Assembly (NCBI GenBank): GCA_008360955.1
Contig: LUCM01006371.1
Location: 63,679 to 127,678, forward strand
Direction: 5' to 3'
Length of the DNA: 64,000 bases
DNA from: Fasciolopsis buskii
Taxonomy: Eukaryota; Platyhelminthes; Trematoda; Plagiorchiida; Fasciolidae
Position numbers and translations under genes: made by a program. Positions 12,641 through 63,607 of the stretch are shown here, in pieces; position 1 is the stretch's first letter, and every line of letters begins with the position of its first letter. A model generated the notes under the pieces. The model was not told where the DNA came from. It was given only the letters and a program-made list of their open reading frames with translations, and did no database searches.

Positions 12641-12649
12641 GAAAACTTT

Positions 12650-25190: not shown

Positions 25191-25244
25191 CTTTTATCTT
25201 TTATTCCTTCACTTTCTTTGTTATTGAAACGAAAGTGTACACCT

Positions 25245-25700: not shown

Positions 25701-26251
25701 AAAGATAATATAGAGCACCAGTCCGACGGACGAAAAGTCACCGACTCGATTCTGATTGGTTACACCGACTTTCGGATGCGTAATACCCAAGGGGTTTTCA
25801 TATTCTGCATAATGATCGACTCCTGGAGCTATCTCAAAATAACCCTATAATATCGGGTTACTTTTCAAGTGCGATGGAGAAAAATGTCATAAAATTAGGA
25901 TATCTGGCAAACTTTCTCGTCATTCTTTTTGTTCTGGTGATTTGGAAAACTGTTTTGTGCGTTATTATCATTCATTCCCATTGATCTAAATGGCATAAGA
26001 CATGCTCCATAGGATGCAATTTTTTAGAAATTAGACAACTACTGAACCCATGTTCGTATTTCAAATATCAGAATTTTAAAGATTTTACATTATCATTAAC
26101 ACTTAGATCTTGTCATGAAAGTAATTAAACTACGGATAAGAAAGGTACCACAAAACCATGGTAGAGTAGCCATCCAACGAGTCCGATATCATTTCACTTT
26201 TGTTTTCAGCAATAAAATAGTCACTTGACGAGCAAACAGAAAACCGGTGAG

Positions 26252-33020: not shown

Positions 33021-33370
33021 ATGAAATAATTCACCGTGTGATATCATCGCTCAACTCAGCATAAAGGAACCATGGAAGCACTGTACAGCTGTTTCATCCT
33101 TGTTAGGAATCATCAGCAGTGTATATTCACCCCACCCGAACTGGGACGCGAACCCGGGACGAACGATTCTGAGTTGAACGCCTTGGCCATTAGGCTACCG
33201 GGCAGGCTCTGCACGGTTTGTTGAACTTCACCACATGACGATGTTGCACCTATCCGTCACTGATTTGCGATCGACCCCTACTGATAGATGACTTCTCTGC
33301 AGGTAATAACCTCAGTACGACGAAGACTTTGGATATGATCTACGGAGCTAGTAGGAGATTGAATGTTTTG
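33021..33370 (-). mobile_element. Family A SINE with intact hammerhead core
   Basis: Minus-strand unit: head near 33,370-33,240, tRNA-like part at about 33,140-33,210 (A box decayed), hammerhead at 33,067-33,132, tail ending at 33,021. A second tail begins at 33,373, a period of 350 bp. See the separate ribozyme entry. Confidence 0.82.
33067..33132 (-). ncRNA. Type I hammerhead ribozyme, core intact
   Basis: Minus strand: CTGATGA at 33,116-33,110, stem II TCCT-AACA-AGGA, GAAAC at 33,095-33,091, then AGCT, then GTA and predicted cleavage between 33,084 and 33,083. Stem I pairs CACTG (33,121-33,117) with CAGTG (33,083-33,079). Stem III is only A-U and C-G closing AGCT. All conserved core bases are present. 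Such short stem III ribozymes usually act best as dimers. Confidence 0.75.
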
Positions 33371-33476
33371 ATGAAATAATTCACCATGATTCCTAACAAG
33401 GATGAAACAGCTGTACAGTGCTTCCATGGTTTCTTTACGGTGAGTTGAGCGGTGATACCACATGGTGAATTATTTC
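33371..33476 (+). mobile_element. Rearranged family A fragment, inverted against its neighbour
   Basis: A family tail in minus orientation (GAAATAATTCACC at 33,373) joins at ATGA directly to the plus-orientation ribozyme half (ATTCCTAACAAGG at 33,387 onward, GAAACAGCTGTACAGTGC) and its tail, ending GGTGAATTATTTCA at 33,476. The 5' ribozyme strand and CTG of the core are missing. The join makes a snap-back structure about 100 bp long. Confidence 0.7.
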
Positions 33477-33765
33477 AATTGGTTAGTTGTCGACTGTTCC
33501 ACCAAACCCACATGCACTGACGCATACTTGCATAGTGGCAATCCCAGTCCGCCTCAGCTCTCATCAAATCATGCAGCCAAACTTCAATAAATACGATTGC
33601 AAATCCACGTGACTTTGAGACGGGTTCAGTTGGAATTCACCTTGCTTTGGATCCGCTAGTCTGCTTGTTCACAGGTCCATGGACCGGAGAAATAGTTCTT
33701 TTACAACATTACATCATTAGCCGCCTTAGACAAAGACAATAACAAAGTTGATATCAAACACTTAC

Positions 33766-45800: not shown

Positions 45801-48800
45801 CGACGTCACCTCCGTTGTGTTGATCTTTGACTGGCATAATAGTCACATCGATGAAATATCGACTGCCCCCGACAGAGTCTTATGATAAAAGCGGGATAGC
45901 ATTCAGAGAAATAAAGAGTTACAAAAAAGAATACAACTCGGTGTTGGCGGATTCCATTTTCAGTGGCAAATCGTAGCTAGAATAGAAATCAGATGAGCAA
46001 TTGTTTTCAAAATGTCTCAACTAACCAACTTTTTGTAGAATCGAGCAGGACAATGAATGGCGGACGATTTGTAAGCGTTAATGGGAACAAATAGAACCCG
46101 GTGCGAGAGGTAGAAATTCTCGTGATTAGGTCATCACGAGGCGAATACATTGGGTCAGAAAAATATTTTTCTGAAATAATTTATTACATGCACCGGAGTT
46201 TTGGGACTCAGGCATGCTGTGCAACACATGGGCAAAACAAAGCATTTGCATTGTAGGATCTGGAAATAAGCTTACAAACCGCACATTCGGGAACTATGAA
46301 AGTCAAACAAAAGATGAGCAAAGGGAATAAATCAATTGATGCCCACATTAATGGCACTAGCAACAAGCACACAATGGATTAATGCAACCTAGGAAGACAT
46401 TATGGGCACACACACGCACACACAAACCTAGAGATTATTGTGCGTACGACCTATCCAATAAGGGGTTTGGATGCGTGCACATCGAAGACATGTTGAATTT
46501 ATTTCCTCTCGCTAAAAAACCTAATTGGTTTTTCCATTGCCATTGGCATTGATCAATCCTTATATACAGTAATAAAATAAATTTTGTGCTACGATATTTA
46601 TTCTTTACTGAACAAACTAAATGGGGGATGAGATACTGTCGATAGCCCGGAGGCAGAGACTGTGATCAGATTGTAATTGAGACTGTGAAGCAGAAATTTC
46701 TGCTCGTATATCAGATTGTAACTTGTCAGTCGAGATCGGCATTGTTAATTCCTACTAGCCCTAGCAAGAATATCATAAATTAGATTGACACGGCATTTAT
46801 TCGTTCAGTTCGAAACAAATCTTTTACATCGATCTACCATGGTCAGCACTCAGCCAACGAATATCGTACTGATGCAAAGTTCACGCTCTGTCTGCCGGTA
46901 AATTTAACTGGTATAGTGTAGCCGTAATTGTATCGATCTTTGGCTATTGGATATGGGTCATTCTTACCCGATCATCGTCGTGTACGGTAAGAAGAATATA
47001 AAGTAAAGCAAAATTAAAACATATAGAACCAGTCGATTACCTTGCGTTTGGGTTCCAATTCGTCCAGTTCCGAATCGCTGTCATCGTCCAAAAAGTCCTG
47101 CAAAGAATTGACAAATCCCCGTTCAAACAAAGAAGTAATCATAATTGACAAATCAACACAACGGGTGGTAGTTCCGGTATTCGATTACGTGAACACCGCA
47201 ATATATCACTTGGTACGCTGAGTGATTACTCACCTCGGTGTTTAGATACTCCTCGTAATCGTCCTAGAGTTCAAGTTGAGGGGAGAAAATCAGTGAAGAG
47301 TTCGGATGCAAAAGGGCAGTAATATTGACGGTAAAATAGAATAAACGATGTAAAAGCAAAAAAGGAAACAATCCTACTTCCTGTGTCGTGCATATATATA
47401 TATAGTGTTCCTCGAATAAGCAAGAGATGTTGGTGCGCACGCGTGCCCAGCTGCACTATGTCCATGTGACGTGCATACACTAGCTTGTGCTCTGCGTTGA
47501 CCTATCCGATCACGTGTCCGAACAGTCAGATGATCTGTCCTTGAGGTTTTGTTAGTACATCAATTTTCAGGAAAGGGGCCGCGGCCAACAGAAGGCTGCC
47601 AAGTGGGGGAAGCTGACCGGCGGTGGGAGGATTCGAACCCGCGACCTTGTCGTCCAAATGCTGCGACCCTATCCGTTTGGCCACCGCCGGCTGGATCTCA
47701 GCTTCGGGTCTTGGTAGTGGAATACGTTTGTTGTCACAACGCCTGTGTTTTGTTCCGAACTCAACAAAACTCATCGACAGTGATAAAGTAACATTGGCAG
47801 TATGATTTTCATTTTCCTCAATTGCTGTTTAGCTGTTTTGTTAGTGTTACGAATGCCCGGTAGTGCACATCTACTGAAAGCCGTGTACGATTTTTACTGG
47901 GGACAACGGATTGTCGGACGAAAACGGAATCACGAAGTTGGAAATGTTGAAAACGAACGACAACTTATCTGTTTCTAACTCTGTACTATTAGCATGCTCA
48001 TTCGTTACTGCTTTTTATGAAGACAAAATCAGGCCTCGACAACCATGTAAAATCAAACGGTATGGGTATGCAGTGGCGAACAAATATGGGTCTGATGTAA
48101 TGGAGTGGACCGTATCAAAAGGACAACAGTTAACGTACTACTGATAGCGGTACACGATGCACCAATACTCCTGTATTGCCAGTAATTTACACAAGCCAAG
48201 GTACACCCCACGTCGTGTGCATCCCAAGTTCAGCTCATATTCTACTTAGTCCACAACCTGCCTTATCCGGTTACCCGATCCGCGTGAGGAGCAGAGAGTG
48301 CTTGTTTTCGTGGTAATAATCAAATCCGAACAGAATATATTTTCAAAGAACTTTCGGGAAACAGCGGCCATTGCTCTAATCAAGCAACTGTTGCACACAC
48401 ACACACACACTTGTAAATGGGATTTTTTCTGGCCCTACCTCTTCACTTTCCGGGGGTGATGGGATAGACGGTCGATGACGTGTTCGGCTCTTGAACCAGT
48501 CCATTGTTAGTAGACAACAACCGGCCAATCCAAACATCATTCCTCCCACAATCATGTAAGGTTGGACGAACAGGATCGCGAGCCATATTCCGACCAGGAA
48601 CAGCGAGGAATAGATCTTATTTTCCCAGTTGTACAATTGCATGAACACTTTGTGTCCCTTTTTAATGTACGTGGCATACGGCGAGATCCGGTCAATTTTG
48701 TGTTGAAGATCCTGTAAGTGTAAGAATGACACGGTGGACGAGGGTGAAACAATAAAACATATGCATTATGATAATAATAATGATTAGTTTGATTAGTCGG

Positions 48801-48990: not shown

Positions 48991-51900
48991 TAAACCATTC
49001 ATCGAACGGTGGCCTTTCCGTATTTCAGAACGCTCTGTGGTGCTTTTATGCACAAGCAACATACTCATTACTGGAAAATCAATTGATTATAAACAGTTAG
49101 CCAACCCGTTTCAGCGGTGACTGAGTTAACAAGATATACCTTGTACACTATCAGTCTAAAGGTGGAAACTTACTATTCTCGAACATAGCAGCAAGATGAA
49201 GATGGGATGAATAAAGCATCATACTATTCAACAAGCAAGAAGCAAGGGACAAATTACCCAAATTATATCAGGTGCACGATGTTGAACGGACGGAAAAACA
49301 AGAACGTGATTAACCTCATGAATCACTCAACAGTTCACCGGGGTGAATGAGTCAAATCGATTTGGTTGCAATCAATCGACTAACCGATCGATAAGGACTT
49401 GGGATCCAATGTCGAACCCCGATTGGCCTAGTCAGCAAGAGCATAACTATACGCACAGTTCATTGGTGTGGGCACGTGTGCGATGGGCGAGATAGAACGA
49501 CCGACAGGAGGATAAAGACTAAGACCACGTCCCATTGAATTTTGAAGCAATGGCACAGACATCAAAAAGCAGTCTTAACTTTTTCTTTTATACCTGACTG
49601 ACGGCTCGTCGGACGCCTCTTTTCATGCACAAATCTTGGGTCATCCGCTCAATCTCACATGAGGGATGTACCAGACTCGAGTTTCGTTCACATTAGAGCT
49701 CATCAGTGGCGCATATCCTCTCTCGTATCCAGTACTTGAACCCCAGCTGTCCCACTGAAAAGTGTGCGTATGTGTGTGGACGTCTGTGCATGGGTGTGTT
49801 ACCGGCTCCCATCCATGCTAATGAGAATTACTGGAGTCAATTTAGTTTGCAGGACATCTTGAATGATCATCAATACTGACCGACAGCTTTCACGGAAGAC
49901 ACGGAAAGTGTCCTGATGCAATCAACTTCTTTTGGAGATAGACTGGCCTAATTGTAGCACTTCAAAATTTAGTCACTTCGAAATTAATTTCAGCAACAAC
50001 TATACTGAGGTCGGAAAGCATAAAACGGGCGCGGAAAAAATGGAGCTTGACCTCCAAAAGAGTGATTGCACTTGGCTTTGGTTGCATCTGTCCTCAGTAA
50101 AATCGATTAACAATCGCTCGCTCTTAGGCCATGGAATCACTGGGATTACAAATGAAATACAAAATTGGGTTAAGATTTTCCTAGTCCTAGCTCATTTGAA
50201 ATGTAGACGTGATTCATGTTTCCGGTAGGAACTGAGAAAACATGACCTTGAAGCAATCGTCATTATGATCTTTTAGAGGATGAGATGCGCCAACTACAAA
50301 GTAAGTCAGTTGTAATGTCACTTCCTGAAATTATCTTCATATTTTGGTCTAATATCCTTGCATGTGTGTAAACTTTTGTGTAGTGATCTGTAGCATTCTC
50401 TCCGGTGTCAGCCCGAGATCGATATGTTATATCCATAAAAATCAATCCTATCAAGGTCAATCATTGTCCGAGGCATTAGCACAGTAGTTTATTGTTGTCG
50501 AATAACGATCGATCACCATTCCGATATTAATTGACCGGCCAGTCAATTCGGTTTCGAGATCAGAGTCGTCCATTCGCGAGAAAAACGAAGTCAAACAGAA
50601 ACTAGATTTCCCGGTTATTAGACCATTTATGTTGCTTTCTATAGTCAGCACTCACTGACTGATTGGCGCGCCGACTAATTCAGTCCACTGATATTAACTG
50701 ACTTTCTCGTGCGGTTATTTCACTCGATCAATCGACTGACATAAACCGGAAGACGTATCTCCATTTGTGCTGATCTTTACCTAGAGTAATGGATACGATG
50801 AGTCGACAATTGAATAACTTGAAAATAACCGCGTTACCTCGATTTGTCCCAAGCATACTTGTGGATCCTGCCAACGATTTACTATCTTTTATCTTTTGTT
50901 TCCATTAGTAATGGAAAAATGGTATGCAGAATGTTCACGGACACGATCGCGGTGAGTAGATTGGTATCAAATGGAGAAATTGACCGGCCGTCGGAGGTTT
51001 CGAACCGTCGACTTTCAGATTGACCAACTGGGCGCCGATGTTTCACAACACGCTCAGTATTGTTGAACTCGTTCGTTTCAAGTTTACCGGCACACTAAAT
51101 GAGCTTACAAAAGCATAAGCATCTGTCATGTGAACCTGTTCTATCAAGTTTGATCACGCTCAAAGTTGTGAACAATTCATCATTCGTTTAGCCACGCAAG
51201 CTAAACTCTTAATACAGTTTCAATATCAAATACATGTACTCGTATGATCGGGTTTAATGATGTCCATCACGTGCATATCTGTCTGTGTAAAATGGCATCA
51301 GGACCCACTAAATAGCTTCACATTTCCAGAATGATCGTGGACTCTAAATGCGGAAGAATGGGAAAGAAAATCAATATGAGTTGTCCAGTTCCGTAGATTT
51401 CGAATAGACAATCTGATCATATTTTGCAATCGATCAGGATTCTCCCAGGTTACTGATTCCGAGTATTGTAACTCGCAGATCATATTAAGTATTTCATTTG
51501 AACAATACTATCTCTGGACAGCATTGGTGGCCGACCGTGACCAGCTGGTCAAAATCATCGTACCTCAACCCGATGGTTGTTAGTTCGAATCCAATGTAAG
51601 CCGGTCAAATTCGTCATTTGGTGGAATTCAATTCAGTCCGTTCGCCAGAATAGCTGGCAAACAAAATAGATGACATGGAGAAGAGCTACCGGGAAGGTGA
51701 AAACCACTTGACAGGAGAAGGTCTTCTTACGAATTGCTCATAAGGACTTACCGGAACATATTTTTTGATCAATTCCTACAAGATAGATAGTAGATGAGGG
51801 GGGGGAGTGAAAGTGGTAAACAGAATTAACAAATGTGTTTTCAACAGTTCTGTCCAATTTCATGAAAAGCGCGTATGATGAAATTCTCAATACGATCACT

Positions 51901-54900
51901 GGTTGAGCGTTGTGGAACAAAACAGGAAAGGGGAAAAGAGGACGTAAATATTGGCAAATTTTTCCACCTAATTCGAAGATTTATAGTGCACTCCAAACAA
52001 ACCACGATGGGAAATTCATCCTCGACCACTGATAGTACTACGCTAAGCACTAATTTGCTTTCTTGAACAGTGAAGAACTGGAGCAGTGGAAACAAGCGCC
52101 CTTCCCAGACCACCGATGACCCTGTGACGGGTGCATTACATCGCCCTGTTCTTTACTCGGTTGTAAGTTATCTCAAACGGTGCGAGACAACATTCTTTTA
52201 TTCCGTGTAAGTCTCATATGGAATAAAAACCGACTGTTTATTTCTAACTCTATCTGTTTTAAGTCTGCGATGGGAGAAGGGAAATCGGGTTGTCAAATTC
52301 CAACTGGTAGCCGCTGTCTTCATTACAGATCCTTATTCTCAAAAGCGAAATATTGACGATTCATGAGAACGCTTTTTCCAATGGCTATCAAGCACGCTGT
52401 CCTCGTCCCCAAGGTTCACTCGGCCAAACTGACAAAGAATTATTAACGAATCATAGTTGTGCTTCTATCGTGTACTTTTCAACGAACAGCTTCCATGTGC
52501 ACTCCTGATGCTGTGAATTTGATTCTGATGAGGCGTACCAATTCGGAGTGCACAAGTATAGAGATGTTTGAACGAGAGGAGCGCCGGGTACGCATACCTG
52601 ACGAGCGGCGATAACCGCGAAACCGGTCGTGTGCTTCCGGGGAAATTTTGTTCCCTCATCCAGATACTATTTGCAATTTGGATATATACAAATATATCAC
52701 TCTGAAATAAACTTGGAAGGTTAACAGAACTGATCTTGACAACTACCGAATTTAGTACTAAGAAGCATGACGAAGTCATGTTAATTTACGGTCTTTTCTG
52801 AAGGACTTATTAAACTGCACCCAGCTAGTTGCAGTGCAGTTTGATTCCGGTGCAACAGGAGTGGAAGAGTCATCAACAATGGGCACTGAAGGTTAGCCTA
52901 GTGAATCAGTTGTACGACTAAGCATAGAAGGTCGAAATTCTACACAAATCGAAAGTCTACGGACCATCCCGGTGACGTTTGGAGCCGGACTGAGAAACCA
53001 AACAACTAATTCTTGATTGCTCAACCAACACTGCAGCGAAGATGACATTATCACGAAAAGAGAACTCTAGCGATTTTAGCCGGGACTATCTGAAAGTGCT
53101 TGATGAATTCAAGCGAAAAACTCACCGCGAAATGTCAGTCATCTGGAATGTATTCAGAGGCACTTAGTGTGACGTGAAGCCACACAAATCTGAGGATACC
53201 GGCAGCTGAAGGAATCAGTCAGCCAGGTGCCCGATGAAGAGATCCAAGTATAATGAACTCCATAGACTGTCAGACAGTCAACCAATGGGATTTTGTCCTT
53301 TTGCTTGCAACTACGAGTGTTATTGTCCACTAAACTTGAATTTACTATAATGCCTCATCTAAACAGTTCTCTGAACTGACAAGGTCTGCGCTGAAGGCGG
53401 GGCAATATCTCCGACTCGGCTGACTAACTGACACAGAAAATCAATTGATAGGCAGATCGATAGATTCAGACTGAAATGAGGCCTGTGAATTTGCTGAATG
53501 CTTTTTCTTGCAAAATGAAAGTGACTTGCACAAATTTCGAAGTAGAGTGGACGTCCCAACCATTTTTTCTGTTTCAGAACCAACGAAAAGACTGCTAATC
53601 GTGCACCGACTATATTTTTGGTAGCTATGCAATACCTGGGTGGTAGTACGTCGAATGAACTCGATTAGCACTCACCAATTCGAAGTTTATGTAGTGTCTG
53701 TGTGAGATCCGGTTATCAATCAAAGATAAAGTGCACACAGGAAGAGTGACATCGGTCCTGATATACAGCTGAGAAACGTGGCCGCTAAGGGCAGGAGAAA
53801 TACGAAGACTTTCAGTGTTTGAACACCGTTGTCTTCAAGCCAGTTATGAAGTGTAACGAAGGAATTTTTTAAGTAACTCACAGGTTATGTCTAAAGTACT
53901 CGATTCTAGAGTCCTGTCTTTAGAACAGGCACTGAATCGGAATAGACGAGGTTGGTTAACACATGTTTTCCGCATGCCCACAGAATGACCATCTCGTTGT
54001 TAACTATTCTGATAGGCACGTATTGATTGAAAAATGGTTAGAGGTGGCCACTCGATAACATGGTAAAGAGATATGAAAATTTAACTAGTGAATTGGCTCG
54101 TGTAGGTCAAGTTAGACTTTCGCGTTGGGGTTCACGAGGTCGCCCAAAGCGACGGTTGCTGACAGTGAGTGATATGGATCAGTGCGAAAGAGAGTGACAT
54201 TAGTTTCATTCGAAATCTTTCCTTTTCTAAATAGTCGTTGATCTCATATTATCTTGAGGGAAATCGCTCAGCATTGTTTGTTCTTTTTTCTCCTTTCACT
54301 AAGCGGTTCTGTACAGTAGCAACCAAAAACAGTGCAAACTGACCGTACAAAAGCTGTATTATCGTGTTATTTATGTAATTTGTGAAAATAAGATTGAATG
54401 CTACCACCATAAAAACGTCGGCACTGCCAGGCCGACGAATGTGGCCCAGAACTTCGGAGGATACAGTCATTCAATTCCCAACCATCTTGGAACCTGTTTC
54501 ACATGGTACTTTACAACTAGTCTTTCTAGGTTTTTTATATTTCATACTGCACTGTTTCACACTATCACTTACTCGGAGATGAACACGTCTAGTGGTGAAA
54601 ACCCAAGGCGTTTCCCGTGGATACGCGACACGCAGCGCTGCACGGATCTGAAATCCAGGACAGGATTGAGAATAATCCATTACATATGAAGTGCTTTTGG
54701 GAATAATGAAAAGACCGGCGAAGTTATACGACTACAACATGGTTGGGCATCGTGCAAAATCGTTTGTGCAAAAGTGCAAAAACATTTAGCTATTTGATTA
54801 ATCATGTTACGCTTCTGTACAACCTCATCACTCGTTAATGCAAACAAACGTGTTGTTATCCCAGCAATAATAAATACGATTCTGTGTTGACTGGTATGAG

Positions 54901-57900
54901 GACTTACCGAGTTGTATTCAATATAGGATTCCAAAAGAATCGCTCCCTTGGAACGTTTCGCTAGCTTCTTATCCTTCAACGTGTACCACTTACATCGGCG
55001 ATTCGCAATCTGCCGGAAAAAGTTAGAAAGTGCTTTTGTGTGCTTAGCAGGTAATGAGTGGCAAAATAAGCTTTCATATTTTCTCCGAACGAGATTCGGA
55101 GCGTATCGAAAAGTCGATTAGCCATGGGATGAATGTGCGAGTACAGTTGTTCAGTAACATCGCTGTTGGTAGGATGCCTTACTGACTTTTGGACAATTGC
55201 ATACATGAGATTTACTTTCGTTTTTAATCACACAGATGTTTTTGACCGGTTCCGAATCGGATCGCTCAAGCGATTAAAAGACACTGTGTCCTGATCATTA
55301 GAATCTGTATTTCTCCAGAGAGGTAGGTCTGTTCACTGATTTATCAATTTTCTGTCTTCCGATATTTCATCAGTGTTGGGCACATTTAGTTGGATGAAAA
55401 TCGACACGAATCAAAAACTGTCGGCCTAACCTCCGTCTGAAACACTGTGCGAGCACCATGGTTTTCGATACCGGCAGGTCTTGCGAGTATTTGGCCCAAA
55501 GTTTTAGCGACAGACTAAACCCGGCAAGGGATAAACCAAAATCTTGAGCGAAAATCATTCATGAGCATCTCATTGTGATACAAGGTTCACCGCCTATGTA
55601 TGGCAAATTGACGTGAGAGGAAAGGGTTAAAATTGTGCGACCTTGGACGAGACTCACCTGAATGACCGGAAAACATACTTTTCCGAGAAAATCTGCGCAT
55701 CGTTTATCCTCCTCTTGGACGACAATCTCCAATACGTCATAAATATCGCTTATTGGACTGCCGCGGACGAGAAAACAAAAAAATGACCTCAAAACATGCT
55801 TCGAAAAATCTCGATGAAAATAATCAAAATAATCTCAACATTTGATTCAATTTTATTCCGGTGTTTCAGTCAATTCGCAGGATGCGTAGATACGGAATTC
55901 TGGTGTACACATGACAACGGCCGCGCCGTCAGGGAACGGAAGAAAGCTAGTTGTGTCCCGGTTAGGGACTCTAAATTTTAGGTTAAAAATCAGTAGTATG
56001 ATTCACATGGTAACCTCCGAGTAAATTTTGTGTGTTGAATTGGAACTCTGGAAATGTTTGTTGTCACTTTGGTTTAATTTTCTAATCTAACCAGACTAGT
56101 AATTTTCCCAGGCAAATGTCTCCCAGCCTTTCTTGTTTCTAAGTAACGATATAAAATATGGAAATGCTGAAGACAATTTGTCGAGTTAATCAAGTGAAAC
56201 TACTTTACCACTTGTCTTGGAGTCAATCGGGCTGAATATCGCCAACGTTCTAGAGATTCATAGATATCTAATCATCGAAATGTCTCGTGTGACATGGAAA
56301 GAGTGACATATTTTGGTAGGACCAACTGCCAGTTTTTCCATTTGATTATGGTCCTAGGTGATATAATTCTAGTATCTAATGGAACTATAACGGGGTGTGT
56401 AACCATGTCCAACTTAATTTGGAGAGTAAAAAGCATGATCTATTTCACGAGATTTCTCGTTCCTTTGAACCCAGTAGTCTCAATCGATCGATTCAGTTCA
56501 CCACGAGCAGAGCAAGAAAGCAACAGAAAAACTCACATTACGAAAGCTTGATTCCACACGGGATTGTTTGTTTTGTACACGGTCGACGTGTAGACGCATC
56601 GATTCACCAATCGAATCAAGCAATACGAATCGCATCGACCACTGCGGTCCTTCGGAGACAAATCGCGGGCACCACGAACTGAACGTATCGGGCAAAGGGA
56701 ATGCAGCGGTTGTGATAGAATGTAAGCATAGCAAATATTACTACATGGAACATATTTCTACAAATTCAAAGCATGTTTTTGATCGATTACGCTTTTTATA
56801 ACCAATCGAATCAATCGTGTAGGGAATGAGCATGTGTTCACCACTATCCGCCGATAGCCCCCGGTACGGTTGTGCTGTGAAAAAATATGAGAGGGAGTAT
56901 ATTTAAGACTGTGGGGCTAATTAAATTCTCTCATAAGTTACAATGCTAGTTGCCGTCTTACAACCGTCTCCAGCCGCACGTGACCGAGTTTCAAACGGAC
57001 AGGGGCAGTGCACGACGTCAATAGTTTCACTCACCGGTGACGTATCCAGGTTTGGTATTTGGGCTGTTTTTTTTCAGACAAAACCAGATTTTGCGTATTT
57101 GTTTTTATCAGTGCGTTTCATGTGCGAATGGAAAACCAAAAAGGGGCCCGAAGAACCATGTGATTCTTAGATGGATTCATCATCCATCCTCGTTCCTATT
57201 CATTCAAATGAGATTCTTGTGCCAATCTAACAACGAGGTGTACAAGTATGGAGGATAGTGAACAGGGGAGTCCCGGGCACGGATAACTAACAGAAGACAA
57301 CAATCGTGAAACCAGCAGGACCATTCCGAGAACATTTATCCATTGATCCATACCTGAAACATACTACTTATAAGAAAAACACTTTCGGAATTAATGTATT
57401 GTTTATTGAGTTTTCTCCAGCCTAGCAGGCAAAACTCTACTACTAATCCTCTTGAGACGCATGTGTAAACTCATCGCCCATATGACGCGTGACCGGAGTG
57501 AGATACTAGCGCCAGCCAAAACTTAGCAAGTACAACCTGATGCGAGAATTGATTAGGGCGGCAAACCTAGCGTAAGACCTGTCGGGTATCAGAGTTTCTG
57601 TTTTCGATTACTGCTCTTCACTGGGTCGATCGTCCGTCTCCACTTTCTCAGGTGAAAACAACCAGGGTCAACCGACAAGCGGAGATTCTCACCTACTAAG
57701 TAAGCTCATCACACATTTATAGGTTGCTTTGTTTGCATTATTGCGCCCGTGCGACTGCCATCATTTCATTAGTTGTCCGGATCGTACTTCGATTGGTCCA
57801 TCGTGTTTGATGCATTTCGCGTGACTCGGTTCATAGCGTTTTTCTTCTAATCCAGAGCGCTCAACCTGATTAGTTGGCCTAGCTGGTGATATGGCATTTT

Positions 57901-60900
57901 TTCCTATATTTTCACACTTGCCTTCGACCCACGCGTAGTTTGTATATTGATCGCCATTTGTCCGTCACGGTCCATCATTGCGCAAGCACCGGTAACCATT
58001 GAAATAGCTGCTACACTCGGACGCAATACCCATTACTATACCATCCTTTGACAGGGCCCAAGTAACAAATCCGATTAAATGAAACTAGCACTCAAGTTGG
58101 TCAGACGGGGCGTGGTATGTAGTTATGGTATACATATAAAGGGATGCGCGAAACCGTATCCATCCGATGATGTTAAGCGTCAGCTAGCAAGCGGGCCCGA
58201 CGTGATGGCAGTCAACCCTAGTCGTGCATTCAGAGCGTTGGCAAGGCTCAGAGCGTGTGCGTTCGACGGTAGGTTAATCTGCGAGACAGATTATCAAGGT
58301 CAACGTCAAGTGTTCTCGGCTTGGACGGGATTGAGAGCAGACCTGTTCGCTCTCAAACGGCAAGGCGTGTGGGAAGTGTGATCCGATTTGTCTGTCGCGT
58401 CAGCGGTCAGGGTTGGGCAGGGATAAATGTACAATGTGCTGTTAGGTCCTTCACTAGGGCCCAAACGGGTGAGAACTGAGTGCAACGTGCCTTAAATTGA
58501 CCAAGTTTCGCTCACACCTGGTACACCTTTAGGTGGGAAAAATTTTGTATTTCGACTGTTTATCTTCAACTGTGACACGGGTGCCGCTGGGTCCGGAAGA
58601 TCAGATTCAACGATGACAGCTACAAGTAACCTACGTTCTACATTTTAGGCTATGCCTATAAGATTATAGAGAGATACGATTAATACGTTGTTCAATCCAT
58701 CCATTTACGAAATTAGCAAGAACAAATTAAATCACAAAACGGCATACTGTAAAACAAGAGGCACATTGGAGGAGAAACCGCATTCTCACGTCATCATAAA
58801 GGCCGCGTCGCCAAGACTCGATGCCCCAGTGAGTCAGCCTAGCAACTGTTAAGATGACGTTTCGTGGTAGCGTAAAAATAAATGAGTTATGGTATCTCAA
58901 AAACTCGTCCCAGAGTTCGGTGCATTTGCAAGGGTTTCGAAAACACAACCCTTTCTACCGTGCGAAGTGTGAGTGCCAACTTACCAATAAGAAAAAGCCA
59001 CCCTACATCTTTCCGGTTCTGCAGTGACCGCCGGAGACTCTAATAAAAGAAAAAGTAAAGAAACGCTGATTAACAAATACTTCTTAGGCATGATTAAGCT
59101 TAATCGCATAAAAGACAACAGTAGTGCGTGCTGTTTAGAACAAATAGCGGCAGATGTCAGTCAATCAACGATTACGAAGTCTTAACTTGAAGGTCGCAGA
59201 TCCAAACCTTTTCATCGGCTGTCACTTCCGTCACTGGAAGACTGAAACCGGTCGGAACACCTGTCTCCGAAATACGGATCACTGTTATATGGTTGATAAA
59301 CGGGGTGAATATATGGGACATTTGTGATGGACCCGACTTATAGTGTGCTACAGAGATTGCAAAGCAAGGTCAACCTAGCCCATCCAAAAGTCCCTAGTAC
59401 TTGGTGTAGAGAGTTCACGTCATCCCCTTCGCATCGGGTAGCCGAAGTATGGTCGCCTTGGCGACCGCAGGTTGAAGACTATGCATCATTCCAGTGTTTT
59501 TCCTAACTAACATATACTATTCAATTGTATGCTTCCGTTTCTAGTACGAATGCATCATCGTCATGGTTAACTGACCACCTCAGCTTGTAAAGAATCACAT
59601 TTTCCACTTAGGTACTCAACAAATGCTTCTTTGTTATGGCCCAGATTAGTCTGCAGTTGTAAGAGCAGGCACAGTGATGCTGTCCCAAACGAAACTCTAC
59701 TAATCGGTCCCGTTTCAGTCCGAAATCGATCCCAAATGTTACCGTCCAGTTGCTAATTATTTCACCACGTGACTGAGGCCATGTACACTATTTTGTCTGA
59801 CTTTCAAAACTACCGAGTACTAGTTTTGACAACCGAAACGTGTTTCGACTCATCTGTTCCGCTTCGAGATGACAGCTATAATTAAAAAGTAGGGACCTGC
59901 ATAAATTCCTCACCGAAAGCTGGCATGGAGAAAACTATCACGTCGGGTCGGGGTGTCTCAGGCTCTGAGCCGGCTACTCGCCCTCAGAGCCTCTTGAAAT
60001 GTGCCCAAGTGACCAGCGTTTCAAATAGCCTCCCACTGAAGTGCCAGGACGAAGGTAAACGTCCGGCGCTCTTCACTGAGTTGACGGATCACAAATAATC
60101 AGTGTAAGGGAGTTGGTTGAATCCTGATTTTAAATCAACCACAGCCAGCGTGCGAAACGCACGGCTGTGCTTGCCGCTGTCCGTGGTGAAGAGGAGTACT
60201 GGACACCCAGGATGTCCAGCCCCATCAGGAACTGAACAATCAGACACCGTCCCCCAGTGAGGGTTACTTGACCCTCAGATCATCCCGGTGCCTTGCGGAT
60301 TAAGACATTTAATCAAAGTTTCAGGCTAGAGTCCCCGAAATCAATCCTCTACTTCGGTTTGGGCAACCGGGTAGTACGAAGCCCACGGAGGACTGATGGA
60401 TCCTGATGGATGGCCGGTAATTTGGAAATGGGGGGGAATAGAGAAACCAGCATGTGTTGTGAACTCTACACAATGTTTCTTATCCCTTCTCGTCTTTCAC
60501 TAATTTGTTTCGTCCTTCGTCATGATCCCGATGGTACACTACTTGTATGCAGATTTGTGCGAAAAATATAATCATGTGCATAAAACATCTCAATTTTCGC
60601 CTCGTTTTGATCTTCCAAGCATACGGAACCTTCGACTTCTTATACTCCAAGGTTTTATTTTTTTTATCCGGATGCGGTTGATTAAAATGCAAAATACATA
60701 AACGACCAACCAGTTGATGGATGTTAGAAGGCCACTTTTCCATAAGTTTTCAATTGGTGAAGAATTCATCAATATTTAAGCAATTTCAAGTCGTCTTTGA
60801 CAACCAAAATGGCGCTGGACACTGAGATACACGGGCAGTCTGCTGTACCGTTTAAATAAAAATCAATCTAATAATTCACCATGTGATATCATCGCTCAAC

Positions 60901-61975
60901 TGACCATTAAGAAACCATGGAAGCACTGTACGGATGCTTTATCTTTGTTAGGAATCATCAGCAATCCAACATCAAGTTCGAAAAATCCAACAGCTTCCTG
61001 CCCGGTAGCGTAATGGCTAAGGCGTTCGACTCAGAATCGTTCGTTCTGGGTTCGAGTCCCAGCTCCCTGTGAGATGGATATGCACTGGTGATCATTCCTA
61101 ACAAGGATGAAACGGTTATACAGTGCTGCCATCGTTTCTTAATGGTCAGTCGAGCGATGATATCACATGGTGAATTATTTCATGTAAACATTCAATCTCC
61201 TACTACTAAAATGCATCAAGTAATCAAACTCTGTAGGTCATATCCAAAGCCTTGGTCGTACTTAGGCTACCTGCAGAGAAGTCATCTATCAGTAGGGGTC
61301 GATCTCTCTGAGCTAGCGGACAGTAACCATGCAAATCAGTGGCGGATAGGTGCAACATCGTCATGTGGTGAACTTCAACAAACAGTTCAGATCCTGCCCG
61401 GTAACGTAATGGCTAAGGCGTTCGACTCAGAATCGTTCGTCCCGGGTTCGTGTCACAGTTCAGGTGGAGTGAATATACACTGCTGATGATTCCTAACAAG
61501 GACGAAACGGCCGTACAGTGCTTTCATGGTTTCTTTATGGTGAATTGAGCGATGATATCACATGGTGAATTATTTCATGAAAACATTCTACTTTCTGCTA
61601 CTAGCATTTTCCAAAAAAATTAAGAATTCCGAAATCCAAAATTACCCGGGCACGTTCACTTTCCCAAGACTAACGTCTACCACGTAAACGCAACTTTCAG
61701 CGGTCACAGGAAGCGGAAAACTATAATCGTTTTTGACGGTCATTTGATACCCCTTTCCTTAAATTCATTTATCCGAAATGTTTGCAAAAGCCAATGGATT
61801 CTACGATAGATTTCCCCAACATTTCCAAAAAAGCACACGCACACAATCATGTTCTTGAACGCACACACATTGTACAGGCCGTGTTGGATTGCGACTGCAG
61901 TTGCGAATGGCATGAATTCACAAGTGTTCACCATTGATCTCTTTTTTAATCATTTACCTACTTCCTGTGTCGTGC

Positions 61976-62015
<40 letters not shown>

Positions 62016-63607
62016 GTGTCGGTAGTGTTTCTCGAATAAGCAAGAGATGTTGGTGCGCACGCGTGTCCAGCTGCACTATGTCCATGTGACGTGCATACGC
62101 TAGCTTGTGCTCTGCGTTGACCTATCCGATCACGTGTCCGAACAGTCAGATGATCTGTCCTTGAGGTTTTGTTAGTCTTTTATCTTTTACTTCCTTTTAT
62201 TAATGAAACAACAATTTGTACATCATTTTTCAGGAAGGAGGCCGCCGCCAACAGAGGGCTGCCAAGTGATGAAGCTGACCGGCGGTGGGAGGATTCGAAC
62301 CCGCGACCTCCACGTCCAAACGCCGCAACCACCGCCGTTTTGTTTGTCCTTACGTGCGTTTATCTATCGCATCGCGATTCGCTAGCTTGATTACGAAGAT
62401 GATGGCTGTCTCGTACTTATTGTCTTTCTGAATGTCATCCGTATCACAGGCGCACACTCTTTTGGTTCTTTGATTGTTTGAGATTTCACCCAGTGTTGCC
62501 TGCTCCATTGTCAGAGCGCCTGATTTATTCGCAAGCTCTGAAACGGCACCGCAACCGATAACAGCGCGTTAATACAGTTTACCAGCGGTAGTTTACCATT
62601 GTCCCACGATGTTCCAGATGCTAGCATCGTGTCACTTCACGGGACTGTTTGTTGTATTCGAACCATTCTTGCGCTACAGTCATACGGACAATCGGAGGTC
62701 CGAATTCAGAGGGACAATAGCACAGAAGTAAACTTACCCTCAGACTGATACTTTCTTCAGTCTACGGATTTGACACCCGGTCGAACTGACCGTAGTGCAT
62801 GCCGTCTGTCAAAACTTCCATGGCTGTTCTTGTACTAGTTCCTGTTTCTGTCCCCAACTGATTTCCTTGTTTCTTCCCGATTTTATTTGGTAGTTGACTT
62901 GATTGGAACTATGATTCTTTTGTTTTATAAATAATACATTGTTCTTTCAAGCCAGGGCATATGATACACGTCCACGGTGATTCAGTCTGTATTTAACCGC
63001 TTGTTATCAATTTTTACAATTAGCCGATCGCTCCGATGCCTAAAATGGGCTGATTCCCCGATCTCCAACGCAGTACTTAAAGGATAAATCACCTACCTCC
63101 CAGTTGTGTTCCCATCGCAGGGGATTCTGAAACCAAGCTACTTCAGTTTCCATAGGTTTGGATTCACAGGGTTCGTAATAAGACATACCACTCTTATTGT
63201 CTAGAATAAATGTTATTTTTAAAATGTAACCGTCATGCTATAGCTTTGAACTGATCACTACCTCTTTCTTACAAATCCCTTACTTACGCATATATCATTA
63301 ATAAAGGGAAGCAAACAAGATTAGTAAACTCACGTAGTGTGACTCGACCATACTGAGTAGTTCTTTGGAGGGTACAATCGAACTGGCCGAGGGTGGGGGG
63401 GTTATTTCGATCGGTTGATCTACGGGCAATCGCTCCGCCTCCGCACTGGGCGACCCACCCGGATTTACGGTCGGGGATTCGATTTGTGATGTCAAACCGG
63501 TCAAGGTGACTAGCAAAATCACGTGGCCACGGAAACCATCCAAATTGTTTTTCAGGGTGAAACAACTGGTCCAGTCAGGAACTTGACGTTCAAAGTCCAA
63601 ATGTCCC
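33766..63607 (-). CDS. MCTP: MCTP (multiple C2 and transmembrane domain protein), C-terminal 15 exons, partial
   Basis: Spliced gene on the minus strand. Exons in transcript order: 63607-63334, 63126-63097, 59018-58985, 58007-57922, 57063-57035, 55757-55658, 55009-54908, 51775-51752, 49653-49594, 48711-48439, 47263-47234, 47097-47041, 45408-45299, 41766-41666, 33860-33766. Splice phases agree at every junction and give about 468 codons without a stop. The product reads in MCTP order: end of C2B, linker, third C2, first transmembrane pair, acidic linker, amphipathic segment, second transmembrane pair with FIPLRY, then a basic TKRFTRRLRN segment. MCTPs are ER-membrane C2 proteins linked to calcium signalling and membrane contact; in Drosophila MCTP acts in presynaptic homeostasis. 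The first two C2 domains mostly lie beyond 64,000 and the final short exon with the stop was not located below 33,766. Identification rests on remembered family features, not a search. Confidence 0.85.
37850..38225. mobile_element. Family A remnants in two orientations
   Basis: A minus-oriented remnant (37,870-37,990) has the ribozyme core as CTAATGA (G5 lost) with an expanded stem II, and a decayed tRNA-like part. A plus-oriented remnant (38,140-38,215) keeps ATATGCACTA, CCCAACAAAG, GGATGAAAT and TTTCACGGTTTC. Both are old and inactive. Confidence 0.55.
38364..38663. repeat. Left arm of 300-bp inverted repeat
   Basis: Every base from 38,364 to 38,663 pairs in register with 39,611 down to 39,312; I see one difference (CTCGAG against CTTGAG). 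The arm runs straight into the gap. It is homologous to the insertion at 22,196-22,540. Confidence 0.9.
38664..39108. other. Assembly gap
   Basis: A run of about 445 N between the two arms of the inverted repeat. Long ORFs reported across it are artefacts. A single N also occurs at 8,331. Confidence 0.99.
39312..39611. repeat. Right arm of 300-bp inverted repeat
   Basis: Reverse complement of 38,364-38,663. Its inner flank (39,109-39,311) has no counterpart on the left because the left arm ends at the gap. The open frame inside it (85 residues) is shared by both arms because they are copies and shows no recognisable domain. Confidence 0.9.
39628..39780 (-). mobile_element. Family B SINE, 5' part replaced by a TA repeat
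   Basis: Minus strand: GTCACGGGTTCGAATCCTCC (box B), CATCGCCGGTCAACTTTCCC, GGCAGCCTTCTGTTGGCCGC, and the tail with TTTCATTAATAAAGGAAGC. The box A end meets the TA microsatellite at 39,781. Confidence 0.75.
39780..39865 (+). repeat. TA microsatellite
   Basis: About 85 bp of TA with one interruption (CTCGT near 39,813). It directly abuts a family B SINE at the box A side. Confidence 0.95.
41500..41555 (+). repeat. CA run followed by GT run (palindrome)
   Basis: A CA-rich tract with CG interruptions is followed at once by TTTGTGTGTGTGTGTT, so the two halves are complementary and can fold on themselves around ACGTG. Confidence 0.9.
41666..41766 (-). CDS. MCTP: MCTP exon: second transmembrane hairpin with FIPLRY
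   Basis: It is 101 nt, acceptor CTGATCAG, donor GTGAGT. It reads WQVPWLTMLFFLFLVFFTLL, then TYFIPLRYLLIIY. The FIPLRY motif at the turn of the second hairpin is a hallmark of animal MCTPs. Introns on both sides are large (3.5 kb and 7.8 kb). Confidence 0.93.
42340..42450 (+). repeat. Repeat D, copy 1
   Basis: It shares ATACCTGA, then ATAACCGC, AAACCGGTCGTGTGCTTCCG and GGG with 52,590-52,650, and GAAACATACTACT with 57,355. All three copies lie on the plus strand in MCTP introns. The repeat type is unknown; it is possibly the 3' part of a SINE. Confidence 0.6.
45299..45408 (-). CDS. MCTP: MCTP exon: amphipathic segment before second hairpin
   Basis: It is 110 nt, acceptor TTTGTATAG and donor GTGAGT, ending two bases into a codon completed as Trp by the next exon. 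It reads HSRKKPLKAKLAKAREVLG, then TLQSVMESVASMLEKID. It aligns with the KKGFINKIYAIQEV then [21 protein letters not shown] stretch of MCTPs. Confidence 0.87.
47041..47097 (-). CDS. MCTP: MCTP exon: acidic linker, part 2
   Basis: Nineteen codons, DFLDDDSDSELDELEPKRK, phase 0, acceptor TTCTTTGCAG and donor GTAATC. The acidic run ending in a basic KRK corresponds to the DEEEED then SEKKG region of vertebrate MCTPs. Confidence 0.77.
47234..47263 (-). CDS. MCTP: MCTP micro-exon: acidic linker, part 1
   Basis: Ten codons, DDYEEYLNTE, phase 0, between acceptor GAACTCTAG and donor GTGAGT. MCTPs carry an Asp/Glu-rich linker at this place between the two membrane hairpins, and this exon with the next reproduces it. 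Confidence 0.72.
47373..47556 (+). repeat. Repeat C, copy 1
   Basis: Direct repeat of 61,957-62,176: CCTACTTCCTGTGTCGTGC, a TA tract, then a nearly identical stretch of about 145 bp from GTGTTCCTCGAATAAG to GAGGTTTTGTTAGT. It lies in the MCTP intron between the first-hairpin exon and the first acidic micro-exon, and a family B copy abuts its 3' end. Confidence 0.8.
47557..47700 (-). mobile_element. Family B SINE with complete tRNA-like cloverleaf
   Basis: Minus strand 47,688-47,619: acceptor stem GGCGGTG/CACCGCC is a perfect 7 bp, box A region GTGGCCAAACGGATAGG, box B GGGTTCGAATCCT. The SINE body follows to 47,571. Despite the cloverleaf it has no CCA-ready end or standard anticodon arm and continues into the SINE body, so it is a tRNA-derived promoter rather than a tRNA gene. 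Confidence 0.8.
48395..48411 (+). repeat. CA dinucleotide repeat in MCTP intron
   Basis: Short CA run about 30 bp inside the intron after the first-hairpin exon. Reading through the donor would enter it. Confidence 0.9.
48439..48711 (-). CDS. MCTP: MCTP exon: first transmembrane hairpin
   Basis: The acceptor CTTACACTTACAG precedes 48711 and the donor is GTAGGG after 48439. It has 91 codons in phase 0. It starts DLQHKIDRISPYATYIKKGH, then VFMQLYNWENKIYSS, then two hydrophobic stretches split by a Pro (SLFLVGIWLAILFVQP and YMIVGGMMFGLAGCCLL), then DWFKSRTRHR and a Pro/Ser/Glu tail. The pattern NWE, hydrophobic stretch, WxxxxxxxP, hydrophobic stretch is that of the first MCTP membrane hairpin (PRT_C region). 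Open reading continues through the donor into a CA repeat, which I treat as intron. Confidence 0.87.
48957..48991 (+). repeat. GT dinucleotide repeat
   Basis: GT run of about 16 units, one GC interruption, in an MCTP intron. Confidence 0.95.
49594..49653 (-). CDS. MCTP: MCTP exon: charged juxtamembrane segment
   Basis: Twenty codons in phase 0, IERMTQDLCMKRGVRRAVSQ, with donor GTATAA and acceptor CATGTGAG. The sequence is basic and probably helical, as expected for the segment before the first transmembrane pair. Both splice sites are weaker than elsewhere in the gene. Confidence 0.6.
50880..51045 (-). mobile_element. Family B SINE, degenerate
   Basis: The tail (ACCATTTTTCCATTACTAATGG on minus, shared TATCTTTTATCTTTTG on plus at 50,883), TTGACCGGCCGTCGGAGG and TTTCGAACCG mark a decayed minus-oriented copy. 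Confidence 0.55.
51752..51775 (-). CDS. MCTP: MCTP micro-exon of 24 nt (tentative)
   Basis: Eight codons, ELIKKYVP, lie between a pyrimidine-rich acceptor (CTATCTATCTTGTAG) and a perfect GTAAGT donor, phase 0 to 0. MCTPs have a comparable charged stretch between the last C2 strand and the first transmembrane segment (about 56 residues from the strand-ending Asn to the Trp before TM1). The chain here gives nearly the same length only if this exon is included. Confidence 0.5.
52470..52690 (+). repeat. Repeat D, copy 2
   Basis: It includes TGCACAAGTATAGAGATG, GCGCCGGGTACGCATACCTG, ATAACCGCGAAACCGGTCG and TGCTTCCGGGG. It shares its 5' part with 57,190-57,300 (GTGTACAAGTATGGAGGATA, then CCCGGGCACGGATA) and its 3' part with 42,340-42,450. 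Confidence 0.6.
53695..54240 (+). mobile_element. RTE-like element, 3' fragment
   Basis: The region carries the same thumb-to-3'-end sequence as 21,890-22,760: GGTTATCAATCAAAG, GAAACGTGGCCGCTAAGG, CGCATGCCCACAGA, and GGTGGCCA then GATAACATGG. It is degenerate and truncated 5'. It lies in an MCTP intron on the strand opposite to the gene. Confidence 0.75.
54908..55009 (-). CDS. MCTP: MCTP exon: end of third C2
   Basis: The acceptor CCGGCAG precedes 55009 and the donor is GTAAGT after 54908. Exactly 34 codons, phase 0 to 0. It reads CKWYTLKDKKLAKRSKGAIL, then LESYIEYNS, closely matching the MCTP stretch Y-V-L-K-N-K then KGVIYLEIDVIFN. This is one of the two most diagnostic exons. Confidence 0.92.
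55658..55757 (-). CDS. MCTP: MCTP exon: third C2, DVLEI / DFLGK region
   Basis: The acceptor GCGGCAG precedes 55757 and the donor is GTGAGT after 55658. It is 100 nt (one base plus 33 codons). It reads PISDIYDVLEIVVQEEDKR, then ADFLGKVCFPVIQ. This is the C2C signature of MCTPs (SVLEVTVYDED, then ADFLGKVAIPLL). The family DED loop-3 motif is EED here and one residue shorter, which weakens calcium coordination. Confidence 0.9.
57035..57063 (-). CDS. MCTP: MCTP micro-exon: third C2, NPxW region (tentative)
   Basis: This 29-nt segment lies between AAACAG and GTGAGT. It begins in phase 0 and ends with two bases, exactly the phases required by its neighbours. It reads PKYQTWIRHR, which would stand for the family's NPxWNxxFxF stretch before DVLEI. 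The acceptor is preceded by A-rich rather than T-rich sequence and the match is short, so it is the weakest exon of the chain together with the 24-nt one. Confidence 0.4.
57190..57390 (+). repeat. Repeat D, copy 3
   Basis: TACAAGTATGGAGGATAGTG, CCCGGGCACGGATAAC, CAACAATCGTGAAACC and GAAACATACTACTTATAAG place it in the same family as 52,470 and 42,340, more diverged in the middle. Confidence 0.55.
57922..58007 (-). CDS. MCTP: MCTP exon: third C2, calcium loop 1 region, GC donor
   Basis: The acceptor GTAGCAG precedes 58007. The exon is 86 nt and ends AAG followed by GCAAGT, the textbook context of a GC-AG intron. It supplies the two bases needed to complete the codon left by the preceding exon and ends in phase 0. 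It reads ISMVTGACAMMDRDGQMAIN and onward, placed like the family segment AEGLMAADVTGKSDPF. The first Asp is kept (MMDRDG) but the SDP triad is replaced by MAIN, so loop 1 would be a poor calcium site. The polypyrimidine tract is weak, so confidence is moderate. Confidence 0.5.
58985..59018 (-). CDS. MCTP: MCTP exon: first beta strand of third C2
   Basis: The acceptor TCACTGCAG precedes 59018 and the donor is GTAAGT. It is 34 nt, eleven codons plus one base, reading NRKDVGWLFLI. This matches the NLKDVGFLQV motif that opens C2C in animal MCTPs. It is small, but both splice sites are good and the motif is specific. Confidence 0.75.
59940..60440 (+). repeat. Probable 5' leader fragment of an RTE-like element
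   Basis: GC-rich non-coding stretch beginning with a 10-bp perfect inverted repeat (AGGCTCTGAG at 59,968 and CTCAGAGCCT at 59,991), later GTGCCTTGCGGATTAAGAC and TTGGGCAACCGGGTAGTACG. The latter parts resemble the leader of the element at 19,288-19,410 (GTAAGACCTTTGATTCAAAG, then GGGCAGCCG). No endonuclease or RT follows. I infer a 5' leader without its body; it could instead be an unrelated repeat. Confidence 0.45.
61391..61455 (+). promoter_or_regulatory. tRNA-like pol III promoter of the active family A unit
   Basis: Box A-like TAACGTAATGGCTAAGG lies at about 61,403 and box B GGGTTCGTGTC at 61,443-61,453, with an anticodon-arm-like hairpin CGACTCAGAATCG between them. The sister unit at 60,998-61,060 has the better matches TAGCGTAATGG and GGGTTCGAGTCC. 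These are internal pol III promoter elements in a tRNA-derived SINE head, not a functional tRNA. Confidence 0.65.
61463..61530 (+). ncRNA. Type I hammerhead ribozyme, core intact, GUA site
   Basis: CTGATGA at 61,483-61,489, stem II TTCCT-AACA-AGGA(C), GAAA at 61,504-61,507, C508 pairing G513, A507 pairing T514, H17 = A515, predicted cleavage after 61,515. Stem I pairs CACTG (61,478-61,482) with CAGTG (61,516-61,520). An outer stem I extension (GGTGG with CCAT/TCATGG) across an internal loop is plausible, as in native hammerheads with loop contacts. The stem III hairpin has two base pairs and loop GGCC. Confidence 0.8.
61957..62176 (+). repeat. Repeat C, copy 2
   Basis: Same sequence as 47,373-47,556 with a longer TA tract (61,976-62,016) and a few substitutions (ACGCGTGTCC for ACGCGTGCCC). 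It too is followed directly by a family B SINE in the same orientation, so the pair behaves as one composite unit. Confidence 0.8.
62177..62340 (-). mobile_element. Family B SINE with D-arm deletion
   Basis: Minus strand: acceptor halves GGCGGTG (62,336-62,330) and CACCGCC (62,287-62,281), perfect box B, but about 14 nt covering the box A half are missing compared with 47,619-47,688. The tail with TTTCATTAATAAAAGGAAG is complete to 62,177. Confidence 0.75.
63097..63126 (-). CDS. MCTP: MCTP exon: linker just before third C2
   Basis: The acceptor GGTTTCAG precedes 63126 and the donor is GTAGGT after 63097. Ten codons, phase 0 to 0, read NPLRWEHNWE, which aligns with the SPLRIFHNL-type stretch that precedes C2C in MCTP1/2. 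The same frame stays open upstream, so the exon may start at 63192 (acceptor AATAAG, also phase 0, 32 codons). The shorter form has the better polypyrimidine context. The stretch between this exon and the next is a 4-kb intron containing family A, family B and repeat C copies. Confidence 0.65.
63334..63607 (-). CDS. MCTP: MCTP exon: end of second C2 domain and linker
   Basis: The acceptor CACCAG precedes 63607 and the donor is GTGAGT after 63334. The exon is 274 nt: one base completing a codon, then 91 codons ending in phase 0. It reads GHLDFERQVPDW, then FRGHVILLVTLTGL, the last beta strand of C2B in MCTPs (family pattern GHLVLLVTLT). A Pro/Ser-rich linker follows (PTVNPGGSP, PPPSASSIVPS). 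It is the most 5' exon visible. No acceptable upstream exon was found between 63,607 and 64,000. Confidence 0.8.

Follow-up and report, generated by a model that had tools for sequence, protein, structure and literature searches.

Hammerhead retrozymes of the trematode Fasciolopsis buskii appear to insert in the manner of Penelope-like elements

A window of 64,000 nucleotides from the genome of Fasciolopsis buskii (contig LUCM01006371.1, positions 63,679 to 127,678 of the forward strand; unless a genomic locus outside it is named, coordinates are those of the window) contains at 60866-61607 a single element with two arms, one of them inverted, which we call locus E. Judging from its structure and that of related copies, locus E is probably a copy of a high-copy family of retrozymes or short interspersed nuclear elements (SINEs) that was inserted in trans by Penelope-like enzymes. 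The family appears to work like a retrozyme or Smalpha-type SINE and to insert like a Penelope element. In more general terms, we think it rather likely that the retrozymes of this genome are SINEs of Penelope, small RNAs with a tRNA promoter, with the reverse transcriptase (RT) and endonuclease acting in trans, priming on two strands, start sites about 26-38 nt apart, and, by rough extrapolation, tens of thousands of insertions, more than half of which are head-to-head; circles or multimers may have served as the RNA template. The element type is already known, and it is the insertion signature that makes a published conjecture testable.

The host genome assembly (703 Mb, 6,974 contigs) contains 2,334 exact occurrences of a 26-nt core of the family and none of the reversed control sequence. 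One hundred listed places of the 2,334 correspond to 93 loci, 80 of which were read in contig order, a sample that consists of exact-core loci only. The flanks of the sampled loci (200,727 bp in total) hold about 15 further copies of the family, and extrapolation from these flanks gives a rough genome total of 50,000 copies.

An opposite-strand head-to-head partner, looked for within 300 bp, was found in 47 of the 80 loci, and in 46 of them the two arms abutted, i.e., lay no more than 30 bp apart. At L010 and L070, the pair is a neighboring copy and the sampled copy itself is single. Abutting tail-to-tail pairs were absent from the 80 loci, with one such pair at a distance of 67 bp. The 3' ends of the arms fall into two clusters, one with 19 of the 137 arm ends at precisely unit position 66 and another at about 88-104. 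We classed arm ends as short (unit positions 50-78) or tail (79-112), and it detracts from the following counts that these limits were chosen once the distribution was visible. The abutting pairs comprise 27 with a short and a tail end, five with two tail ends, none with two short ends, and 14 in which an end falls into neither class. When the end classes were shuffled 20,000 times across the 46 pairs, the respective means were 14.7, 11.4, and 4.5, and not a single shuffle reached 27 short-plus-tail pairs. The tail on the long-ended arm extends 26-38 bp beyond the end at about 66.

Direct repeats around the whole pair reached the criterion of a score of at least 8 in 21 of 47 pairs, versus 3.6% of mismatched flanks, which indicates that many pairs represent one insertion; such an enclosing repeat was not detected in the remaining 26 pairs. 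At the junctions of the abutting pairs, the arms overlap by at least 1 nt in 30 cases, are bluntly joined in 4, and are separated by inserts of 1-14 nt in 12. As a control, we used another SINE family of the window, with copies at 62178-62330 and elsewhere, and none of the 17 copies in this local set was part of an abutting pair.

At locus E itself, the inverted head-to-head arm (60866-60968, minus strand) comprises the hammerhead region and the 3' end, has a broken hammerhead core (GAAAC changed to AAAGC), and terminates at unit position 63 or close to it, in the short class. The forward arm (60997-61607, plus strand) is 611 bp or about 1.55 units long, and its outer end is at about 92, in the tail class, giving the short-plus-tail combination. 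This arm carries two units, each with a tRNA-like part followed by a type I hammerhead, and the hammerhead positions 61088 (E1) and 61483 (E2) are 395 bp apart, in accordance with a preliminary description of this DNA that had recognized two plus-strand units with this spacing. That description placed the locus at 60870-61612 and left the arm at 60866-60968 unnamed, although it is part of the element, and the supposed beginning of a third unit is in fact the element's 3' tail, with its end at 61607. Its classification as a retrozyme or Sm-alpha type holds with respect to the tRNA-like promoter and type I hammerhead in units of about 392-395 bp, whereas the simple head-to-tail array is not supported. 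Head-to-head pairs account for the majority of the copies sampled. Inside the element at locus E, there is no reading frame of at least 150 residues, and collections of viral contigs, genome contigs, and plasmids yielded no match to the element.

The putative tRNA-like RNA polymerase III (Pol III) promoter of E1 (61006-61059, plus strand) matches the Rfam tRNA model with 31.2 bits (cut-off 29 bits) and contains TAGCGTAATGG at 61006-61016 and GGTTCGAGTCC at 61049-61059, which we take to be an A-box and a B-box on the basis of the box consensus. In the corresponding region of E2 (61402-61455, plus strand), the presumed A-box TAACGTAATGG (61402-61412) has one mismatch and the presumed B-box GGTTCGTGTCA (61445-61455) has two. 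Box-like sequences thus precede each hammerhead, as had been described. The Rfam tRNA model found nothing in locus L044 at E values up to 0.1 and nothing in six further loci at the gathering score, and ARAGORN (bacterial code) reported no tRNA genes, either in the window or in 25 loci. On the sense strand of the family, TTTT occurs 1.65 times per kb versus 6.28 expected from base composition, and AAAA occurs 4.31 times per kb versus 4.58 expected; the flanks contain 10-11 per kb of TTTT and AAAA alike. The depletion of TTTT fits selection against internal Pol III stops, and we propose that Pol III reads through the units because their sense strand is poor in TTTT. The first TTTT 3' of the E1 A-box, at 61607-61610 on the plus strand, coincides with the 3' junction of the element and is a candidate stop for Pol III.

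A strict type I hammerhead descriptor detected three hammerheads in the window, as compared with 0.005 per window in 200 dinucleotide-shuffled windows. Two of them, at 61483 (plus) and 33116 (minus), belong to the family of locus E, and the third, at 52598 (plus), belongs to a different family. The E2 hammerhead (61469-61527, plus strand) has an intact core with CUGAUGA, GAAA, and the GUA cleavage site, a stem I of CACUG/CAGUG, and a palindromic stem III (ACGGCCGT) that consists of two pairs and a palindromic loop; its predicted cleavage is between 61515 and 61516. The earlier view that the second ribozyme keeps its core bases is therefore correct, with the qualification that pair 10.1-11.1 is U.C in place of G-C. 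A match to the covariance model Hammerhead_1 does exist at 61477-61521 (25.1 bits, E value 0.0022), and the model is absent from the gathering-level Rfam search because this score is below the gathering score of 34 bits. Members of the family score 25.1-26.7 bits, likewise under the gathering score, as type I hammerheads with a conserved core and U.Y at pair 10.1-11.1. In the family this pair is U.U (T in 137 of 140 sequences at column 367 and in 135 of 141 at column 380), a feature shared with the helix II base of the axolotl hammerhead HHR_Amex2, whose cleavage is described as weak in the monomer and improved in the dimer (PMC7229834). Among 98 hammerheads that were found via the family stem II pattern in the 80 loci and five window loci, 58 keep the core, stem I (at least four of five pairs), stem III, and the cleavage base, and most of these 58 were sampled for the exact core.

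E1 (61074-61132, plus strand) had been considered dead, with the consequence that no monomer could be cut out of the array. Its cleavage site, predicted between 61120 and 61121, is intact, stem III is weakened by a C.A mismatch, and the core (61088-61094) carries the exchange C3G/G8C. As this double exchange partly restores the activity that is lost in either single mutant (PMC11167929), inactivity of E1 is not established. E1 and E2 could also share an extended stem III with seven of eight pairs, two of them G.U, which we liken to the shared extended stem III of dimeric newt hammerheads (PMC6155905). Given this extended stem and the C3G/G8C rescue, the claim that no monomer can be excised is likewise not established for locus E. 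Genome-wide, two copies, E1 included, combine C3G/G8C with an otherwise exact 26-mer. The C3 variants of the 26-mer number 308 in total; of the 100 that were listed, 25 carry C3G and G8C is absent, and G8C is found in 2 of 139 mapped arms, E1 included. We considered that the E1 exchange could be a propagating compensated core and dropped this idea, as the frequencies predict about one double variant by chance. An unusually stable circle was also rejected, since the 395-nt E monomer, with a GC content of 45.8%, folds no better than 100 shuffles (z -0.24) and is 58.7% paired, compared with 60.5% in shuffles. In a fold of the whole array, the E2 ribozyme is base-paired to the inverted arm; RNA initiated at the E1 promoter would exclude this arm.

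Tandem spacing, which had been noted for locus E, is seen in some copies elsewhere in the genome, at distances of 392 and 397 bp. Two of the three findings that the preliminary description had named as refuting, a missing covariance match and genomic copies lacking tandem spacing, thus did not come out, with the match being below the gathering score. In L044, two predicted ribozymes that are both intact follow each other in tandem at a distance of 392 bp, and it is the sole such locus among the 80 and the window. Among the fetched arms, 14 are longer than 392 bp, with up to 3.5 units and a maximum of 1,390 bp in L044. Arms of the family continue across the cleavage site, and their templates would accordingly have been uncut there, ligated circles, or multimers. 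In L044 and L024, the tandem units are sister-like, with identities of 0.93-0.99 versus 0.87-0.89 to other loci, a comparison that excludes the outermost partial unit of L044 (0.75-0.80). The units of locus E are 0.84-0.85 alike, and those of L035, L045, L060, and locus B of the window are likewise not clearly sister-like. The sister units of L044 and L024 thus favor a single-source template, and E1/E2 and the other long arms are indecisive.

Taken in sequence, the proposed mechanism would be as follows. Starting at the A- and B-boxes, Pol III would read across a single unit or several, and part of this RNA would be cleaved by its hammerheads to monomers, which may then be closed to circles by ligation. 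An RT/endonuclease of the Penelope type would attach to the RNA on the 3' side of the hammerhead, cleave the target on both strands, and use each of them for priming, with a choice between two start sites that are about 26-38 nt apart. Two 5'-truncated complementary DNAs (cDNAs) would finally be joined, often via microhomology.

Candidate sources of such an enzyme are present in the genome. A Pfam search for GIY-YIG gave two matches, with L090 at 28.6 bits against a cut-off of 22.6 bits. When P0003, a relative of L090, was used as the query, all 150 sequences scored out of 4,538 first-look candidates matched with E values of at most 5.4e-34, and some of the matches lie within long open frames. 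One of the loci, L091, has an open frame at 559-3000 of its own plus strand that encodes 813 residues with a YVDD motif and an RVT_1 match and has a GIY-YIG-like end similar to P0003; (TA)n stretches lie near both ends. Among the listed matches, endonuclease pairs less than 3 kb apart are arranged minus-then-plus in C6338, C1979, C4434, and C3827 and plus-then-minus in C4953.

The paired arms could in principle have arisen in other ways. If the family were an ordinary tRNA-derived SINE moved by a long interspersed nuclear element (LINE), with inverted arms made from one RNA by twin priming (5' inversion), the tRNA-like promoter, the depletion of TTTT on the sense strand, the flanking direct repeats of mostly 9-15 bp, and the single copies would be accounted for, and the window also contains a frame (8860-9402) that has no Pfam match and that we take to be LINE-endonuclease-like from a motif. 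Twin priming, however, puts an internal point of the RNA outermost on the inverted arm, whereas 75 of the 92 outer ends of abutting pairs are 3' ends of the short or tail class, and an excess of pairs with one tail is not predicted, which makes this explanation improbable in our view. The chances that, in place of two independent primings, a single cDNA or an antisense RNA primed itself by snap-back appear slightly smaller still. It has been proposed for Penelope (PMC3846280), and priming on an antisense template fits the head-to-head orientation, but the inner arm ends usually differ in unit position (e.g., 361 and 71) and overlap by few nucleotides. The one-tail excess moreover calls for two different start sites, and the arms of one pair are hardly more alike than those of different loci (identity 0.884 versus 0.868, higher within the pair in 26 of 40 cases).

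That the family is a satellite-like array spread by recombination at the DNA level, with the inverted arms being palindromic rearrangements or chimeras of assembly or amplification, is very unlikely. Tandem arrays such as that of L044 do occur, but the enclosure of whole head-to-head pairs by direct repeats, the clustering of the outer ends, and the lack of abutting pairs in the control SINE of the same assembly all speak against it.

Insertion by Penelope-type enzymes has to be weighed against a number of observations that do not favor it. Single arms make up 35 of the 80 sampled copies, 5 of 32 testable ones have a duplication (score of at least 8, null 2.4%), and hidden short partners were found for 2 of 35; furthermore, 14 of the 46 abutting pairs have one end outside both classes. 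The control set of 17 copies is small and includes one head-to-head-oriented pair, 196 bp apart. At locus E, a filler of 28 bp separates the arms at the junction, and the flanks contain no recognizable target-site duplication; at locus C, described below, the ends are short plus short, contrary to the one-tail rule. There is no sign that cleavage shapes the inserted RNA, because 5' ends are not enriched near the cleavage site (2 of 137 at unit positions 1-20 and 1 of 137 at 381-392). Conservation in 56 arms that lack the exact core or come from the window is 0.88 for core 1, 0.92 for GAAA and stem II, and 0.89 for the rest, so that conservation of the catalytic columns barely exceeds that of the remainder, as would be expected of decay after insertion. 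Stem covariation among five sequences was not above that of shuffles, with one stem II pair placed on gap columns, and a tRNA covariance match above the cut-off was obtained in E1 only. On the side of the enzyme, P0003 reaches 19.4 bits with GIY-YIG, under the cut-off, the 813-residue frame of L091 has no GIY-YIG match in Pfam, and the designation as Penelope-like presumes that RT and GIY-YIG in one frame are diagnostic. In the one Penelope-type locus that was read, no homology to the retrozyme beyond chance and no hammerhead were found.

Smalpha elements have a GUC cleavage site. The present family differs from Smalpha and Sjalpha of Schistosoma in its GUA cleavage site and in the U.Y mismatch at 10.1-11.1, and resembles them, as they are described, in its short dispersed and tandem units, tRNA-like part, and type I hammerhead. 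Smalpha elements are described as tRNA-Gln-related SINEs, and more than 38,000 hammerhead candidates were reported in S. mansoni (PMC2770079, PMC8490949); the passages on Smalpha in these two publications make no mention of Penelope-type pairing of copies. Metazoan non-LTR (long terminal repeat) retrozymes are described as 150-450 bp repeats with type I hammerheads, a short stem III, target duplications of more than 4 bp when present, and a GC content below 45% according to a legend and below 50% according to the text (PMC7229834). Like these, the family has a type I hammerhead, units of 395 bp (locus E) or 392 bp (L044) that are in some cases in tandem, a low GC content, and duplications of more than 4 bp, which are seen at the family level (21 of 47 pairs, and 12 bp at locus C) and are not recognizable at locus E. 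For metazoan retrozymes, circles and cleavage have been demonstrated (PMC7229834), whereas they are predictions for the present family, and unlike retrozyme circles, which are described as highly self-paired, the E monomer folds as shuffles do. Plant LTR retrozymes, with type III hammerheads inside the LTRs (PMC7229834), differ from the family by its type I topology.

For Penelope-like elements (Penelope/Poseidon and Adineta vaga Pen), a head-to-head inverted partner, an optional tail of about 30 bp on one of the arms, target duplications around many of the copies, and partial tandems are described (PMC3846280, PMC11167929). A purified Penelope protein has been reported to cleave both strands and to extend both, with reverse transcription beginning at two neighboring internal positions by which the tail is defined (PMC11167929, the one in vitro study we found on a Penelope protein of full length). 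Part of the copies of the family resemble these elements: 47 of 80 loci have a pair, 27 of 46 abutting pairs have a single tail, and 21 of 47 pairs have duplications. In contrast to Penelope-like elements, the unit of about 392 bp contains no RT or endonuclease gene; as it leaves no room for an RT/GIY-YIG gene, the family is at most a passenger of Penelope and not a member.

The window contains four more loci of the family. Locus A (12626-13003, plus strand) is an old single arm with C3U that has lost stem I, and locus B (18604-19046, minus strand) is a single arm with G at the cleavage position and predicted to be uncleavable. Locus B begins 4 nt past the cleavage site; that its 5' end was set there by cleavage was considered and discarded as chance, as there is no family-wide pile-up. 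Locus C has a main arm (33015-33388, minus strand) with an intact hammerhead at 33116 and an inverted arm (33386-33475, plus strand). Its target-site duplication of 12 bp lies at 33477-33488 (AACTAACCAATT in minus-strand reading) and at 33006-33017 with 11 of 12 positions identical; 0.9% of random pairs are as good, and it is the best of the five loci tested. Locus D consists of an old main arm with G5A (37804-37984, minus strand) and an inverted arm (38090-38212, plus strand) at a distance of about 105 bp, which is thus not abutting.

At 52579-52651 on the plus strand lies a hammerhead of a second type, in which stem III is minimal and the cleavage site is GUC (Rfam HH9, 37 bits; gathering score 52); it has weak relatives at 42344-42417 (plus) and 23694-23779 (minus). 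Minimal type I hammerheads have been described for Penelope-like elements; Pfam detected no RT or endonuclease within about 5 kb downstream on the plus strand (52600-57502 and 42400-47202). A third hammerhead-like sequence at 49651-49724 (minus strand), with a relative at 35675-35768, has an imperfect stem II and scores 27.1 bits with HH9, below the gathering score. A second tRNA-like SINE family is represented at 62178-62330, 25199-25362, 25559-25712, 39623-39780, and 47549-47695, and four of these five copies contain GGTTCGAATCC, which fits the B-box consensus. The inverted repeat 38353-38663/39312-39622 (311 bp, 98.4% identical), which flanks an N run, is likely an assembly feature or a palindrome. 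The Pfam search of reading frames covered part of the window and gave no match; the frame at 26216-27421 (plus strand, 401 residues) has no Pfam match at an E value of 0.001 and one relative besides itself among 5.8 billion proteins.

Aimed full-text literature searches, which had partial coverage, retrieved no published report of a Penelope insertion signature in hammerhead SINEs. What mobilizes animal hammerhead retrozymes is an open conjecture, with Penelope-like elements, LINEs, or others under discussion, and Cervera and de la Peña called Penelope-like elements "a strong candidate" (PMC7229834). With thousands of inserts that appear to record priming on both strands, two start sites, and joining by microhomology, this conjecture becomes directly testable, and the family of F. 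buskii would provide a large natural data set on Penelope-type insertion.

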